Below, piece after piece: positions 23,100 to 40,869 of a stretch of 60,689 nt of DNA. The DNA is from Oceanibaculum indicum P24 (lineage in GTDB: Bacteria; Pseudomonadota; Alphaproteobacteria; Oceanibaculales; Oceanibaculaceae): contig NZ_AMRL01000024.1 of NCBI RefSeq assembly GCF_000299935.1, positions 1 through 60,689 of the forward strand, in the 5' to 3' direction. The position numbers and the translations under genes were made by a program. The notes under the pieces are model-generated. The model did not search any database and had not been told where the DNA came from. It was given only the letters and a program-made list of their open reading frames with translations. The first letter of the stretch is position 1; each line of letters starts with the position of its first letter.

Positions 23100-23714
23100 A
23101 TGAGCGGCATGCGCATCACCGCTGCCCTGTCCGGCCGGCTGGCGCAGGAAATGCGCGCGGAGGCCGCCCATGTTGCGGAGGCTGTGCATAGCAGCGTGAC
23201 GGGCGAAACGACTGCCGTGCAGCTCCGCGCGCGCGGGCTGGTGGATGCCGCCCTGCCGCCGCGTGCCGGCAGCCGGCGCAAGCCGTCCAATGCCATCCGG
23301 CAGAAAATCTATAATGACGGGCCGGGCCGGGTGCGCGGCATCGTCTATTCGAAATTCGGGCGCCGCGAAGGCGGGCGCTTTGTCGATTACCTGAAGCCGC
23401 ATGTCGATGGCGCGGATATCCGCCCCCGCGCCGGCAGCTTCATGGTGCTGCCGGTCAAGGGGCAGTCGCGCCGCATGGACCGCATCCGCCGCGATCTTGG
23501 CCGGCTGGGGGAAGACCCGAAGCTGGCGTTGATCCCGGTGTCCGGCGGCCGCTTCGTCTTCGTCCGGCGTGCCAGCCGCAACCGCACCGTCCTGCTGGCC
23601 TGGCTGGTGCGCGGCGTCCGCATCGATCCGAAGCTGAATTTCAGGCCGCTGGAGCAATCCGCTGCTTCCGGCCTTGCGCGCCGCCTCTCCGCCGATCTGG
23701 CGAAGCCGGCATAG
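23100..23714 (+). CDS. Minor tail / tail completion protein, DUF6441 (gpZ-like)
   Basis: 204 aa. 'EAVHSSVTGETTAVQLRARG' and a basic 'AGSRRKPSNAIRQKIYND' region, then 'PRAGSFMVLPVKGQ', are typical of DUF6441, which replaces gpZ in many alphaproteobacterial siphophages. Likely at the head-proximal end of the tail, between the joining protein and the gpU-like gene. Confidence 0.75.
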   Translation: MSGMRITAALSGRLAQEMRAEAAHVAEAVHSSVTGETTAVQLRARGLVDAALPPRAGSRRKPSNAIRQKIYNDGPGRVRGIVYSKFGRREGGRFVDYLKPHVDGADIRPRAGSFMVLPVKGQSRRMDRIRRDLGRLGEDPKLALIPVSGGRFVFVRRASRNRTVLLAWLVRGVRIDPKLNFRPLEQSAASGLARRLSADLAKPA

Positions 23715-24189: not shown

Positions 24190-24366
24190 ATGCAAAGGAA
24201 AGCCCCGCGTGTGCGGGAAGCATCGCCGCGTGTCGCGGCGGTGGCACCGCATCGCCTGCCCGATGGGGCGGCGGCGCGGCCGGGACCGGCGGCCCTGTCG
24301 GCCGTAGGGGAGAAGGTGAAACAGCGCCGGCGCGGCCGTCGCAAGGTTGAGGAGAAAAAGGGATGA
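24190..24366 (+). CDS. Small basic protein, 58 aa
   Basis: ATG 24190 follows AGGAGG, and its stop overlaps the tail tube start as ATGA, so it is a real translated unit. The product is rich in Arg, Lys, Ala and Pro and likely disordered ('KVKQRRRGRRKVEEKKG'). No family. Confidence 0.6.
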   Translation: MQRKAPRVREASPRVAAVAPHRLPDGAAARPGPAALSAVGEKVKQRRRGRRKVEEKKG

Positions 24367-25529
24367 GCAGTTTCCGGACCAAGAATGTCATCACGGCCGC
24401 CAAGGTGCAGGCGGAGGTCGGCACCGATGCCGCCCCCACCGTGGGGGATGACGCCTTCCTGTGCGAGGCGGTGTCCGCCAATCCGAGTTTCGAAAACGAG
24501 GATACCGACGAAAGCACCGGCGTCCTGGATGACCGGCCGTCCATTGCCGGCGGCGGCTTCCGCCCCTTCGATACCACCGTGCATCTGAAGGGCAGCGGCA
24601 GCGCCGGCACCGCGCCGGAATTCGCCGCGCTGCTGATCGGCTGCGCCATGGCGGAATATCTGCTGGCGGCCGATCTGGTCGGCACCGCGACGGCGGGCAC
24701 CTCCTCGACGGTCAGCGTGCCGGACATTACCGGCGTGCGCGCCGGCATGGTGCTGGAAATCACGGACGGCACCGGCGAAGGCCAGCGCCGCGTGATTACC
24801 GGCGTGACGGCGGGTGTCAATCCGGCGGGCGTGCTGGCGGTCTATCCGGATTTCGAAACCGATCCGGACGAAACCAGTGAGATCACGGTGCGCGCCTGCG
24901 CACTCTATGTCCCGGCGTCCACCAGCCTGAAGAACATCACGCTGCGCCGGTGGCAGAAAGACAGCGCCGGCGGCAATTCGAAGCTGACCAGCATTGTCGA
25001 TGCGGCGGGTACGGCGAATTTCACCTTCGCGCCGCGCGTCACCGGCAAGTGCCAGTTCCAGATGCGCGGCCGCCTGTCGGCGCCGACCGATGTTGCCGAT
25101 CCCGGCGCGCCGTCGCTGACTTCCGTTCGGCCGGTGGCTCTGGTGGGCGCGGAAATCTTCCTGGGGGGCGTCGCCACGCGCTTCAACCAGCTGACCTTCA
25201 ACCTGGGCGCGACGGTCGATCAGCAGGACGATCCCTCGGATGCCTATGGCTATGGCGAGGCCGGGGTGACGCGGCGCCGCATGGAAGGCCGCATCAACCC
25301 GCCGATGGCCCTGCAATCGGTGCGCAACGCCTTCGCGTCCTGGCTGAACGGCACGACGCAGGCTTTCTGGCTGAATTACGGGCCGGCCGCCGGCAACCGG
25401 ATCAGCCTCTACGCGCCGGAGCTGGTCTATACCGGAGACGAAGACGAGGACGTGCGCGGCTTCGCGCATTCCGGCCTGCCCTTCCGCGCCGGCGGGCAGG
25501 ATAGCGGCGTCCATATCTGCTTCTGGTAA
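24363..25529 (+). CDS. Major tail tube protein (gpV-like)
   Basis: 388 aa. N-terminus 'FRTKNVITAAKVQAEVGTDA', 'FENEDTDESTGVLDDRPSIA' and 'VHLKGSGSAGTAPEFAALLI' are characteristic of a long form of tail tube protein in alphaproteobacterial siphophages. It stacks as hexamers on the tape measure. A middle segment 'TVSVPDITGVRAGMVLEITD' may be an inserted Ig-like surface domain. Its stop overlaps three tandem repeats, followed by a terminator. Confidence 0.82.
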   Translation: MSSFRTKNVITAAKVQAEVGTDAAPTVGDDAFLCEAVSANPSFENEDTDESTGVLDDRPSIAGGGFRPFDTTVHLKGSGSAGTAPEFAALLIGCAMAEYLLAADLVGTATAGTSSTVSVPDITGVRAGMVLEITDGTGEGQRRVITGVTAGVNPAGVLAVYPDFETDPDETSEITVRACALYVPASTSLKNITLRRWQKDSAGGNSKLTSIVDAAGTANFTFAPRVTGKCQFQMRGRLSAPTDVADPGAPSLTSVRPVALVGAEIFLGGVATRFNQLTFNLGATVDQQDDPSDAYGYGEAGVTRRRMEGRINPPMALQSVRNAFASWLNGTTQAFWLNYGPAAGNRISLYAPELVYTGDEDEDVRGFAHSGLPFRAGGQDSGVHICFW

Positions 25530-25651: not shown

Positions 25652-26452
25652 ATGTCCACTTCTCCCGCTTCCATCCTCTCCGATCCGGCAAAGCCGGTCC
25701 CGATGATCCCGTCCGATCAGGTGCGATTGCCTGTCAGGGATCGCATCACCTACTGGCTGCGCCTGCCGACCGTGACGGATCGTGTCGCCTTCCCGCGCGA
25801 GGTCGCGGAGGCCGGCGGGATCAACCACAGCAATGATGTGATGCTGGCGGCGCTGGTTGATGGCGTGAAACAGATCATGCCAAACCATGCGGCGGAGCAA
25901 GCCCGGCTGCTGGAGATCATCGCGGAACAGCGTGCGAAGGCGGATGAGTTCGGGCGGCGCATCCTGTCGCGGGAGCTGGATTTTGAGGCTGATCCCGCCG
26001 GCTTCATGGCGGCGATGGCGGCTACCGGCCCATCCTCCGCGATAAAGGAAATCGAAGCCGTTGTTCAACGGCATTGGGCGCATTATCGCGGCCTGATAGC
26101 GGATCGCGAAACCTACCCGCTGGTGCGCGGCCTGGTCGCGGCGCGTCTGTTCCTGACCGGCTGGGACAATATGCCCGGCCGTGACGGAAAGCCCGTCGCC
26201 TTCCCCGATCCGGTGCCGCCCGGCGGCGTGCCGGATGATCTGCTATCCCTGCTGCCCTCCGCCCATCTGGTCGAGATCGGGCAGGAAATCCAGCGGCTCC
26301 TGGAGCCTTCGGGGCACCTCCTAAAAAACTTGCAATCGCCGTCTGGTGGGGGCTTCGGCCGGCGGACTTCGAAGGCGGCGAAGCCGCGACAGCGGAAAGC
26401 CCCCTTGAAGGCGACTGGTGGGAAGAGCCGGAAATCGGCGTCTCCCGCCTGA
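25652..26452 (+). CDS. Tail assembly chaperone, short form (gpG-like)
   Basis: 266 aa, preceded by AAGGA. Alpha-helical, with 'HSNDVMLAALVDGVKQIMPN' and 'ARLLEIIAEQRAKADEFGRR'. The gene lies between tail tube and tape measure, the G/T position. At codon 224-226 the zero frame reads CTA AAA AAC, a perfect -1 slippery site. The zero-frame tail after it is basic and low complexity ('KPRQRKAPLKATGGKSRK'). The ratio of short and frameshifted forms controls tail assembly in lambda; here inferred. Confidence 0.83.
   Translation: MSTSPASILSDPAKPVPMIPSDQVRLPVRDRITYWLRLPTVTDRVAFPREVAEAGGINHSNDVMLAALVDGVKQIMPNHAAEQARLLEIIAEQRAKADEFGRRILSRELDFEADPAGFMAAMAATGPSSAIKEIEAVVQRHWAHYRGLIADRETYPLVRGLVAARLFLTGWDNMPGRDGKPVAFPDPVPPGGVPDDLLSLLPSAHLVEIGQEIQRLLEPSGHLLKNLQSPSGGGFGRRTSKAAKPRQRKAPLKATGGKSRKSASPA
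26323..26329 (+). promoter_or_regulatory. A AAA AAC slippery heptamer for -1 frameshift
   Basis: The heptamer is correctly phased (A, AAA, AAC in the zero frame of the chaperone gene). A slip gives a continuous -1 frame to 26,667. A GC-rich region capable of hairpins ('CTTCGAAGGCGGCGAAG' type, near 26,365-26,385) follows. It is the only such heptamer noticed in the tail genes. Confidence 0.82.
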
Positions 26453-26667
26453 CCATCCATCCGAAACACCTCCTGTCCCCGGAGGAGGTGGAAATCCAGC
26501 GGCTTTATTTCGCCACGCGCGGCGGCCTTGCCGGCCCCGGCCCGCTGCCCTTCCGGGGCGGCTGGGCCGATCAGCCGGCGGCGCTGATGCGCTGTCTCGA
26601 TCACATGCGCGGCGTCGAAGCACGGCTTCGCCCGCCCGATAAATCCGGGAAATCAGATGAGCGCTGA
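26329..26667 (+). CDS. -1 frame extension of the tail chaperone (gpT-like part)
   Basis: The -1 frame has 112 codons from the slippery site to TGA 26,665-26,667 with no start of its own. It reads like real protein: 'LAIAVWWGLRPADFEG', 'RLTIHPKHLLSPEEVEIQRL', 'YFATRGGLAGPGPLPFRGGW', ending 'ADQPAALMRCLDHMRG' and 'EARLRPPDKSGKSDER'. Joined to the first 226 residues it makes a 338-aa fusion like lambda gpGT. It overlaps the tape measure start at 26,657. Confidence 0.8.
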   Translation, partial: LAIAVWWGLRPADFEGGEAATAESPLEGDWWEEPEIGVSRLTIHPKHLLSPEEVEIQRLYFATRGGLAGPGPLPFRGGWADQPAALMRCLDHMRGVEARLRPPDKSGKSDER

Positions 26668-29600
26668 CAGGGCCATTTACATCCGGCTTGGGGTGCAGGA
26701 TGCCGACAAGGCCATGTCTGCGCTCAACCGCGTCGGGCTGACCGGCGAAGCCTCGCTGCAGCGCGTGGCGAAGGCTTCCGCCCCGGCCTCCGCCGCGCTG
26801 CGCGGCGTCGATCAGGCGTCGCAGGCGGTGCAGGGCAGCCTTGCCGGCATGGCCGGCCGTCTGGGGGCTGTCGGCACCGGCCTTGCTGCCATTCATCCGG
26901 CGGCGATGCTGGCGGCGGCGGGTGTCGCGGCTGTCAGCCTGTCCCTGTCCAAGGGCGTCAAGGATGCGGCGGAGGCGGAAAAGCAGCTCCTCCGCGTCGA
27001 AGGCGTGCTGCGCGCCACCGGCAATGCCAGCGGTCAGACGGTCGCGGGTATCGAAAGCATGGCGCAGCAGATGCAGCGCACGCGGCTGGTGACGGCGGGG
27101 GAGGTGCGGGAGGCATCGGCCGCGCTGGCCACCTTCAAGTCTGTGACCGGGGATACGTTCGGCACCGCGATCCGCCTGGCGCAGGATATGGGTGCCGTGA
27201 TGGGCGGCAACCTGACCAGCAATATCGCGCAGCTTGGCCGGGCGCTGGAAGATCCTATCCAGGGTGTCAGTGCCCTGCGGGAACGCGGCATATCCCTGAA
27301 TGTCGTGCAGATGGAAATGATCCGCGGCTTCGTCGAGAGCGGGGAGAAGGCGAAGGCGCAGGCGGTCATTCTGGATGAGATCGCCAAGCAGGTTGGCGGC
27401 GCTGGTGAGCGTGAGGCGAGCGGTTCTCTTGTCGGTGCCTATAAGGCGGCGGCGGTCGCTGTTGGCGAGTTCCTGGAGACGGCCGCTTCGCAAACCGGCG
27501 CGCTGGAGGGGTTGAAATCTCTTTATCGCGGCGTCGCGGATGAGGTCGATGGGCTGACCCTGCGCATTGGCGGCGGCAGTCAGGATGCGCGTGAGGGCTT
27601 CCTTGCCCGCAATCTGGAGGAGGGTGAGAAGCGCCTCGCTTCCCTGTCCGCTGAATTGCAGCGGCTCCAGGATGATGGCGCCTTCGCGGCACAAATCCGC
27701 AACCAGCAACAGCGTGTCGAGGCGGAGCGTCAGGCTGTCGCGGAGCTGCGCAAGGAATATGAGGATTTTCTGGCTGTTAAGGGCGGCGATGAGAGCAAGG
27801 CCGCCGCTGAAGCCGCCGCCGCTGCCGCTGCCCGCGATGCCGCCGCGCAGGAAGCCCGCGCCGCCGCCCTGGCGAAGTTCGCGGAGGTGCAGCAGCGCAG
27901 CATCGAGCTTGCCGGTATCGAGACGCGGGAGCGGGAGAAGCTTGCCGCTGCCGACAAGGCGGAAGCCGATCTGAAAAAAGAGCTTGCCAAGGTGCAGGCG
28001 GCTGCCAGTGCGGAGGAGATTGCCGCCGCCCGCGCCCGCGCCGTCGCGGAGGTCGAGGCGAAACAGGCTTTGGAAGATGCCGGCAAGGCGGAGGATGAGC
28101 GCCGCCGGCGGGCGGAGAAGGCGCAACAGGAAGCCGCCAAGGAAGCCGAGAAGCGGCGCGATGCGGTCGCGGCCATTGAAGGGCAGATTGCCGGGCTGGC
28201 GGATGAGCGCGCGCAGCTCGAAATGACGGATCGCGAGCGGGCAATCCATGTCGAGCTTCTCCGCGCGGAGGAGATCGCGCGCAAGGCCAACATCGCCCTG
28301 ACGGCCGAACAGGAAAAGCGCATCCGGGAGGAAACCGGCGCGCTCTATGACCGGAACGCCGCGAAGGAAAAGCAGGCGGAGCTTGACCGGGATGTGAAGC
28401 GCAAGGCCGATGAGGCCGCCCGGCAGGTTGAGCGCGCGGTTGAACATTCCACCGGCCGCATTGTCGATTTCACGGCCGATGCCTTTGACCGGCTGCTGTC
28501 CGGCACCAGCGGCAGCGTGCGGGAGATCGCGAACGATCTGCTGGCCGTCATGCGCCGAACCTTCGCGCAGATTGCGGCGGAGGCTGTCATCCGCCCGTCT
28601 GTCGAAGGGGTCATCACCTCCGCCCTGTCCGGCGGCATGCCGCGTGTCGGGGCGGGTGGTGGCGCGTCCGGCGGCGCCGGTGTCGGGATCAGCGATCTTT
28701 TCAGCATCGGCAATCTGTTGTCCGGCGGCGGCATTCTTGGCGCCGGCGGACAGGCCATGGTGGGTAATGCCGCCCTGTCGCTGGGCTTCGGGCCGGGCAT
28801 GGCGAATGCTGCGATTGACGCGGTGAATTTCAGCCCGTGGGGCGTTGTCGGTTCCCTGGGGGCGCGTCTGCTGGGGCTGGGCGGCGGCATCGGCGGCACC
28901 ATCGGGGGCATCGGCGGCAGCCTTGCCGGTGGTGCGGCGGGCGCGGCCTGGCTTGGCCCGATGCTGGGGGCGGCCGGCGGGCCGGTGGGGGCGGTTATCG
29001 GCGCCTTCCTGGGGACGGCGCTGGGCGGGCTGTTCGGCAGTCAGCCATCCGATTACACGGCCTCTTTCCAGGGCATGCTTAATGGCCGGGTCCGTCCTAC
29101 CGAGGATGGCGCGAACGAGGAGACACGCGCCGCCCGCGACGAATTGCAGGGCATCGTGATGTCCGCCATCGGTCAGTTGACGCAGATGACCGGCGGCCGG
29201 CTGTCGGATAATCTGTACATTGACAGCGCCATCGGCTCCCGCGACGGCTCCCGCTTCTGGCTCTATCGCACGATGGAAGACCTTTTCGGGCAGCCCGCAA
29301 GCGCCCGGCCGGAGGCCATCGCCAGCGGCACCTATGGCAGCCCGGAGGAAATGGTTGCGGGCCTGCTGGAGGCCATCGTCGGCACGCTGGAGGATGTGCC
29401 GGACGATCTGCGCGAAAAGCTTGCCCGCGTCTCCTTCGATGATCTGGAGCAAGGCTTTGGCGATGTCGATCTGATTACCCGCTTCGATAAAATCTTCCAG
29501 GCGGCGGAGCCGGTCGGGCAGATGGAAACGGGTATCCGCTCGCTCTATGCCGCCTTTGAGGATGCCAGCGAGCGGGCGGAGCGGCTGGAGCTGGATGTCG

Positions 29601-31159
29601 CCAGCGTTGGCGATCAGTTCCAGGATGCGCTGTCCCGGCTGTTCACCGGGGAGGCTTCGCCCGGCGTCTATGCCACGGCCTGGCGGCAGCTCAATGAGGC
29701 TATCGAGGCGACAAACGAGGAGGCCGAACGGCTTGGCCTGACCCTGGATAGCAGCATCGTGCAGGCGATGCAGGAAACGCGCGGGCGGCTGCGCGCGGAG
29801 CTGTCCGGCAATCTGGATGCCGCGATCAATGACGCGCGGGGCAATGGCTTCCTCAATCAGGCGGCGGGCTTCGTCGCGCAGTTCTCCGCCAATGTCGCGG
29901 AGCTGGAGGCGGTAGGGCTGCCGGCGGCCAAGGCGACGGAGCTGCTGTCCCTGCAGCTTGCCGGGCTGTTTGCCGGCCTGTCACCGGATCAGGCCGCCGC
30001 CCTGCGCGCGGAGCTTGACCGGCTGGGGGTCAGCCTCGACGCCACCACGGCCAAGGCGGCATCCGATGCGGCCATGCTGGCGGGGCTGGAGGGGGAGGTT
30101 ACGCGCACGCGCAATGCCTATCTGGCGGCCCTGCAGCAGGAAGCGGTGGAGCTGGAGGATCAGGAACGCGCCTGGCGTGGGCTGGCTGTCAGCATGCGCA
30201 ATGCGCGGCTGTCGCTGCTGACCGATCCGCAACTCTCCCCGCTTGGCCCGGCGGCGCAGTATGCCGAGGCGCGGGCGCAGTTCATCGCCACGCGCGATGC
30301 CGCCCTTGGCGGGGATGAGGAGGCGGCCGGCCGGCTGGAGGATGTCAGCCGGCGCTTTCTGGAGATCAGCCAGTCCTACCATGCCGATCAGGCCGCCTTC
30401 CGGGCGGATTTCGACCTGGTGCAGGCGGCGATGCGGGATACCGAGGATGCGGCGCGCCGCATTGCGGATCGGGCGCTGGAGCTGCTGGCGGTGCAGCGCG
30501 ATCAGCTTGCCAGCATGGGCGTGCTGATCGATGAGACGCGGAGCATTGCCGAGGCGCTGGCGGAATATCAGGCGGCCGTGCTGGCGCTGGCGGCCGGGAA
30601 GTCGGGGGCTGGTGTTGGCGGCGGAGCCGGGAGCATCACCTATGCCGATACCGGCTATCAGCGATCCGCCGATGATCTTATCCATGGTGTGGACCGTGCC
30701 ACGCGCGATGCCATCCTGCTGTCGCTTGGCCAGACAACCGCCGGCGGTGGGGCGGTGCAGGCGCGCATCGCCAGCGATCCCGCCTTCGCGGCCGATTACC
30801 GGCAAGCGCTGATCGATGCCGGCGGCCTGCCGGGCTTCGCCTATGGCGGGATCAGCCGGGGGCCGCAAATCGCCATGGTGTCGGAAGGGCCATACAGCGC
30901 GGAGGCGCATGTGCCGCTGCCAGACGGGCGCAGCATCCCGGTGACGGTCAGCAATGGCGGTGTCGGTGGTGACGCTGTAGCGCGCGAGGTGGCGCGCAGC
31001 GGTGCCGACACGGTCGCGGCCGTGGGGGAGGTCGCGGACGCGGTTGCGGCGCTGGCCGGCATCGTCGGGCGGCTGGTGGCGGAGAACAGCAATCTGGCGA
31101 AAGAGGTGCAGCGTCTTGCCCTGCGGCCGCTGCCGGCGCCTGCAACCGGGAAGCTGTAA
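26657..31159 (+). CDS. Tape measure protein
   Basis: 1,500 aa, the longest gene of the prophage, directly after the chaperone pair. The N-terminus 'GEASLQRVAKASAPASAALR' leads into a hydrophobic segment (about 75-100). Residues around 290-570 form a long Ala/Glu/Lys/Arg-rich coiled coil. A Gly-rich hydrophobic region (about 700-790: 'GLGGGIGGTIGGIGGSLAGG') could insert in the membrane during DNA entry. 'GLPGFAYGGISRGPQIAMVS' near the C-terminus is typical of tape measures. At about 0.15 nm per residue the tail would be near 220 nm (inference). Confidence 0.94.
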   Translation: MSADRAIYIRLGVQDADKAMSALNRVGLTGEASLQRVAKASAPASAALRGVDQASQAVQGSLAGMAGRLGAVGTGLAAIHPAAMLAAAGVAAVSLSLSKGVKDAAEAEKQLLRVEGVLRATGNASGQTVAGIESMAQQMQRTRLVTAGEVREASAALATFKSVTGDTFGTAIRLAQDMGAVMGGNLTSNIAQLGRALEDPIQGVSALRERGISLNVVQMEMIRGFVESGEKAKAQAVILDEIAKQVGGAGEREASGSLVGAYKAAAVAVGEFLETAASQTGALEGLKSLYRGVADEVDGLTLRIGGGSQDAREGFLARNLEEGEKRLASLSAELQRLQDDGAFAAQIRNQQQRVEAERQAVAELRKEYEDFLAVKGGDESKAAAEAAAAAAARDAAAQEARAAALAKFAEVQQRSIELAGIETREREKLAAADKAEADLKKELAKVQAAASAEEIAAARARAVAEVEAKQALEDAGKAEDERRRRAEKAQQEAAKEAEKRRDAVAAIEGQIAGLADERAQLEMTDRERAIHVELLRAEEIARKANIALTAEQEKRIREETGALYDRNAAKEKQAELDRDVKRKADEAARQVERAVEHSTGRIVDFTADAFDRLLSGTSGSVREIANDLLAVMRRTFAQIAAEAVIRPSVEGVITSALSGGMPRVGAGGGASGGAGVGISDLFSIGNLLSGGGILGAGGQAMVGNAALSLGFGPGMANAAIDAVNFSPWGVVGSLGARLLGLGGGIGGTIGGIGGSLAGGAAGAAWLGPMLGAAGGPVGAVIGAFLGTALGGLFGSQPSDYTASFQGMLNGRVRPTEDGANEETRAARDELQGIVMSAIGQLTQMTGGRLSDNLYIDSAIGSRDGSRFWLYRTMEDLFGQPASARPEAIASGTYGSPEEMVAGLLEAIVGTLEDVPDDLREKLARVSFDDLEQGFGDVDLITRFDKIFQAAEPVGQMETGIRSLYAAFEDASERAERLELDVASVGDQFQDALSRLFTGEASPGVYATAWRQLNEAIEATNEEAERLGLTLDSSIVQAMQETRGRLRAELSGNLDAAINDARGNGFLNQAAGFVAQFSANVAELEAVGLPAAKATELLSLQLAGLFAGLSPDQAAALRAELDRLGVSLDATTAKAASDAAMLAGLEGEVTRTRNAYLAALQQEAVELEDQERAWRGLAVSMRNARLSLLTDPQLSPLGPAAQYAEARAQFIATRDAALGGDEEAAGRLEDVSRRFLEISQSYHADQAAFRADFDLVQAAMRDTEDAARRIADRALELLAVQRDQLASMGVLIDETRSIAEALAEYQAAVLALAAGKSGAGVGGGAGSITYADTGYQRSADDLIHGVDRATRDAILLSLGQTTAGGGAVQARIASDPAFAADYRQALIDAGGLPGFAYGGISRGPQIAMVSEGPYSAEAHVPLPDGRSIPVTVSNGGVGGDAVAREVARSGADTVAAVGEVADAVAALAGIVGRLVAENSNLAKEVQRLALRPLPAPATGKL

Positions 31160-40824: not shown

Positions 40825-40869
40825 CTTTTAATCAGTAGGTCGTGGGTTCGAGTCCCACAGGACTCACCA
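40825..40869 (+). other. attR: 3' half of tRNA-Lys(UUU)
   Basis: From 40,825 the sequence is anticodon loop CTTTTAA, stem TCAGT, AGGTC, T-arm GTGGG-TTCGAGT-CCCAC, acceptor strand AGGACTC and ACCA. The 5' half is missing: the bases before it do not pair with TCAGT. This is what remains at the distal end after integration in a tRNA-Lys gene, the phage copy having restored the gene at attL. Core could start in the anticodon loop. Confidence 0.86.

Follow-up and report, generated by a model that had tools for sequence, protein, structure and literature searches.

A gene pair in a prophage of Oceanibaculum indicum P24, lying directly before the tape measure gene, is very probably expressed through a programmed -1 ribosomal frameshift that yields a short G-like protein and a long G-T-like protein. 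We put the probability of this reading at roughly 93%, on the strength of the sequence and phase of the slip site, a switch of the codon signature from one frame to the other at that site, its conservation in divergent relatives, and the gene order. A programmed frameshift had been proposed in an earlier note on this DNA, and the proposal agrees with where the heptamer lies, its phase, the length of the fusion, the order of the genes and the conservation seen among relatives. We regard the frameshift as real and as ordinary in kind, a new example of a known phage mechanism. The window (the whole stretch of DNA analysed, 60,689 nucleotides) is contig C24 (1-60689) of a genome of 3.95 Mb assembled in 71 contigs.

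Reading frames and gene order at the putative slip site

Read in the zero frame of ATG 25652, positions 26321-26332 are CTA AAA AAC TTG, which places the heptamer where the earlier note had put it and in the phase it had claimed (CTA AAA AAC at 26321-26329), and TGA 26450-26452 closes this frame 40 codons beyond the heptamer. The -1 frame is open from 26239, directly after a TGA at 26236-26238, to TGA 26665-26667, and counted from the heptamer it holds 114 codons (2 slipped codons and 112 more). The predicted fusion after a slip comes to 224 + 2 + 112 = 338 aa; recounting the frames from the sequence returned both the 112 open codons and the 338-aa length previously given. The -1 frame also ends in the first codons of the tape measure gene, as had been stated, the overlap with ATG 26657 being 11 bases. 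The further claim that the -1 frame has no start of its own stands for its first 55 codons (up to 26487) and fails beyond them, where GTG 26488 (directly after GGAGGAG), ATG 26587 and ATG 26605 are possible starts, all three falling within the conserved domain.

Table 1. Features at the putative frameshift site, in window coordinates
Feature	Position	Strand	Remarks
Tail-tube-like gene	24363..25529	+	relative's gene in the same place: 27% identity over about 240 aa, E 5e-16
G-like gene, zero frame, 266 aa	25652..26452	+	conserved part is 226 aa, ending at the heptamer
Slippery heptamer A_AAA_AAC	26323..26329	+	in phase with the zero frame; matching heptamer in 68/68 homologous loci
T-like -1 frame domain, 112 codons + stop	26329..26667	+	would give the 338-aa fusion
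Tail length tape measure gene	26657..31159	+	PF06791 E 3.9e-11; PHROG 973 E 9.4e-59

The site is surrounded by tailed-prophage genes (terminase gpA, lambda-family portal, S49 peptidase, cement protein and capsid protein E), and the local order is tail-tube-like gene, G-like gene, -1 frame T-like domain and tape measure gene (Table 1). Two features of the lambda-type arrangement are directly visible: the gene preceding the tape measure gene carries an in-phase heptamer close to its end, and the second frame runs open into the tape measure gene and is conserved at the protein level. The pair also lies between tail tube and tape measure genes, where the putative tube gene is recognised by homology through relatives; on its own it matched nothing in Pfam, and in PHROG nothing better than E 0.4. 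The relative compared for this gene is a contig of Oceanibaculum pacificum (L003). In another homologous locus (L026) the gene at the tube position is PF18906 Phage_tube_2, and in phage JP1 a gene upstream is annotated as a tail tube protein. The adjoining tape measure gene was checked in the window and in L026, L027 and L028, and some relatives have a DUF6441 gene directly after T instead. The window itself has a DUF6441-like gene at 23100-23711, which lies upstream of the tube gene and scores slightly below the curated cut-off (E 1e-5); the gene order differs in O. pacificum, in which a strong DUF6441 gene directly follows the -1 domain.

The prophage seems to be integrated in a tRNA-Lys(UUU) gene, because the 3' part of such a gene, ending in CCA, lies at 40825-40869 of the window, the 5' part is found where contig C4 of this genome ends, and the two share a 21-base core. 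The tRNA of this gene reads the AAA codon of the prophage's slip site. Congeners carry the same 21-base core within a tRNA-Lys pattern match.

Conservation of the heptamer and the switch of coding frame

By itself the heptamer is weak evidence, because AAAAAAC occurs 6 times on the two strands of the window against 1.14 expected; the strong evidence for the site is comparative and comes from the in-phase heptamers of homologous loci. A search of 385 genomes of the class with the zero-frame protein found, besides the window's own genome, only two congeners, both with 33-34% identity over residues 131-217. Both congeners read GCA or GTA followed by AAA AAC TGA, a zero-frame stop directly after the heptamer, and in both the domain encoded in the -1 frame is homologous to that of the window; the same gene is present on Oceanibaculum pacificum NZ_LPXN01000149.1. 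First scans with the zero-frame protein gave no relatives in genome contigs, viral contigs or phages, and neither the first scan with the -1 domain nor the O. pacificum-type proteins gave any in phages. Further relatives were reached through the congeners and then with profiles of the -1 domain and of the relatives' proteins, and they come from bacterial genomes, metagenome viral contigs and two deposited phages. The resulting sample is 68 homologous loci, which fall into 32 groups at about 80% identity; the 68 still include near-identical copies and some places under two identifiers, and the 32 groups correct for both. Seven weak profile matches (L019-L025, E 0.0016 to 0.0098) were left out, as were repeats of places already counted (L001-L003 and L009-L015, L003 being counted as L034).

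An in-phase X_XXY_YYZ heptamer stands at the start of the -1 domain in all 68 loci. Conservation of the heptamer among related phages was a check that the earlier note had proposed, and the contrary case it had named, relatives with the two frames separate and no slippery site, occurs in 0 of the 68. The heptamer is A_AAA_AAC in 59 loci (23 groups), A_AAA_AAG in 5 (5 groups), G_GGA_AAC in 2 (2 groups), and G_GGA_AAG and A_AAA_AAA in 1 each (1 group each). At the 5,385 other codon positions in the G genes of the 32 representatives, 3 in-phase X_XXY_YYZ heptamers were found, and the six shifty heptamer kinds counted were found at none. Because 3 of the 32 groups have G_GGA_AAC or G_GGA_AAG, it is the slip that is conserved and not the Lys-Lys residues. 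Sampling carries a bias in that some of the profiles start at the heptamer's Lys-Lys and so favour A-rich sites; the seed patterns (LPxxGGxxDQ) are free of it, sitting some 70-80 residues downstream of the heptamer, and in 31 of the 68 loci the detecting similarity started at query residue 38 or higher, well downstream. Across the relatives, identity to the window's proteins is 17-38% in the -1 domain and 12-29% in the zero-frame part, and the -1 domain has a motif close to LPxxGGxxDQ whose P, G, G and Q are invariant in 32/32 rows. The 32 groups are divergent examples that keep the slip site and little other sequence.

The codon signature changes frame at the same point. Before the heptamer, G+C by codon position in the window's zero frame is.72/.46/.77; after it the values are.75/.57/.72 in the -1 frame and.57/.72/.75 in the zero frame, so that the low second codon position passes from the zero frame to the -1 frame at the heptamer. 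The same holds across the sample: codon position 2 has the lowest G+C before the site in the zero frame of all 32 groups, and after the site in the -1 frame of all 32 and the zero frame of none. Substitutions between close relatives fall mainly at zero-frame third positions before the site and at -1 frame third positions after it, as in the comparison of L003 with L004 (by codon position, 6/4/30 before the site in the zero frame and 2/4/13 after it in the -1 frame).

Two features of individual T domains were seen in passing. Those of L026, L027, L028 and L077-L084 have a Cys-rich pattern (CxxCP ... C ... CP), metal-binding in look, that is absent from the window's group. In G098 (L018 1501-1953) the -1 frame has 150 codons and its end resembles, by eye, the ends of DUF6441 proteins, which would fit a deletion that joined T to the gene after it; G in this locus likewise looks truncated in its upstream part.

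Proposed mechanism and alternative readings

Both the occurrence of slippage and its rate are inferred. The majority of ribosomes would stay in the zero frame and produce the short G-like protein, while on a minority the Lys-tRNA on AAA and the Asn-tRNA on AAC would re-pair one base back on AAA_AAA, and these ribosomes would read 112 further codons to give the G-T-like fusion. Reporter frameshift values in another tail chaperone cluster are given as 6 and 7% in a passage of PMC3711429. No general downstream stimulatory RNA was found in the 32 groups, the 70 nt downstream having a mean z of -1.12 and z below -2 in 9 of them (in the window, -1.40 at 70 nt and -2.01 or -0.72 at other lengths). 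Nor was an upstream Shine-Dalgarno-like stimulator found: pairing is equally good at about 31% (median) of other in-gene sites. The position of the two products suggests their assembly roles: if they act as their lambda counterparts do, the part shared by both would coat the tape measure protein, with the T part bringing in the subunit of the tail tube.

The same fusion would be encoded if RNA polymerase slipped on the A run, leaving an extra A in some of the mRNA. The site is indeed a run of six A, and runs of 7 to 9 occur in some relatives, which would suit such slippage. However, the G_GGA_AAC and G_GGA_AAG sites of 3/32 groups have at most three consecutive A in the same place; they keep tandem tRNA slippage and not a homopolymer, and therefore argue against the polymerase. 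Efficient transcriptional slippage usually requires runs longer than six. We consider polymerase slippage improbable. Smaller still is the likelihood that the -1 frame is translated by coupling from a start of its own, with the heptamer incidental. The position of GTG 26488 after GGAGGAG speaks for such a start, as does the presence, in 15 of the 32 groups, of an ATG, GTG or TTG no later than codon +10 of the -1 frame; but no such early start exists in the other 17, the window among them, the first ATG lies deep inside the domain in most groups, and the conserved domain begins at the heptamer, itself present in every one of the 68 loci.

It is scarcely credible that a single open reading frame has been split here by a deletion or by an error in sequencing the A run. 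Errors are frequent in homopolymers and the site lies within six A, yet the two parts are in different frames at the heptamer in 68/68 loci, the zero frame stops directly after the heptamer in 7/32 groups, and the same arrangement recurs across bacterial genomes, metagenome viral contigs and deposited phages. As a general explanation a broken gene is refuted by these comparisons of sequence.

Relation to known tail chaperones

Searched against Pfam, PHROG and NCBIfam, the G-like and T-like proteins gave no match with E below 0.04 and none near a curated cut-off. AlphaFold models were predicted with a mean pLDDT of 92.8 for G-like residues 1-226 and 87.8 for the T-like 114 aa from the heptamer; Foldseek found no match to either model at E of 0.001 or less, and VIA-align returned only common helical bundles for the G-like model (Z at most 7.0) and nothing at Z of 2 or above for the T-like model. 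The earlier note had equated the pair with lambda G/GT. The equation holds for the architecture only; the searches gave neither sequence or profile similarity to the lambda proteins nor a convincing fold match to a known tail chaperone; the pair is best described as a probable functional analogue, common descent finding no support in profiles or folds.

The lambda G and GT genes are likewise placed before the tape measure gene, but the lambda heptamer is G_GGA_AAG where the window has A_AAA_AAC, and gpG, the first part, is about 140 aa long, shorter than the 226 aa of the window. PMC5009743 describes the G/GT frameshift as a conserved feature of long-tailed phages (Xu et al. 2004 is a cited reference), and in lambda as a -1 slip near the end of the first gene with the longer fusion as the minority product, gpG and gpGT acting between the tape measure protein and the tube subunit. 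By its description there, the haloarchaeal virus HCTV-2 also uses A_AAA_AAC for g-t expression (PMC5009743), although its host is archaeal and that of the window's prophage is not. Agrobacterium phage JP1 (PQ741606) and Microcystis phage Mae-JY22 (PP438414) have a T-like domain related to the window's via L026 and an in-phase A_AAA_AAC (2968 of L028 and 3001 of L027) before the annotated tape measure gene; they differ in the Cys-rich T-like domain and a shorter first gene, and their listed CDS features leave the two frames unjoined. The HK97-like tail assembly chaperone cluster described in PMC3711429 shares the phage tail chaperone frameshift, but its sequences are of HK97 type, and no Pfam match ties the window's proteins to them. 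Literature searches on tail chaperone frameshifting gave mostly reviews, a prediction tool and single-phage papers (including PMC5009743, PMC10885494 and PMC3711429); a literature search for Oceanibaculum and prophage returned only a paper on carbonic anhydrases.

The conserved tail chaperone frameshift is hereby extended to a protein family unrecognised by the profile libraries searched. A simple rule that looks for an in-phase heptamer in whichever gene precedes the tape measure gene would allow the fusion to be annotated in genomes that list just the short gene or a truncated second one, JP1 and Mae-JY22 among them. A_AAA_AAC is a weaker shift site in E. coli than A_AAA_AAG according to PMC5009743. 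The pair may represent a tail chaperone family that is widespread in proteobacterial phages and holds to this weak site. Hosts may hence have features of ribosome or tRNA (such as a modification of Asn-tRNA) by which AAC becomes slippery, or the choice of this codon may serve the phage to set the ratio of the two products; we hold this reading as a whole to be rather doubtful.

A separate idea, that tRNA-Lys(CUU) is present in hosts of A_AAA_AAC phages and missing from those of A_AAA_AAG phages, was unsupported: G518 and G548 (A_AAA_AAG) have a tRNA-Lys(CUU) match, and G445 (A_AAA_AAC) has none. The gene pattern used matched in 8 of 13 genomes and is crude, as the pattern for tRNA-Lys(UUU) also matched in only 8 of 13. 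In the window's genome ARAGORN found one tRNA-Lys(CTT), in L086, and none in L085. These two loci lie on contig C16, which has two tRNA-Lys(CUU) pattern matches about 5.8 kb apart, one of them intact by ARAGORN; perhaps a small element is integrated in the tRNA-Lys(CUU) gene of this contig.
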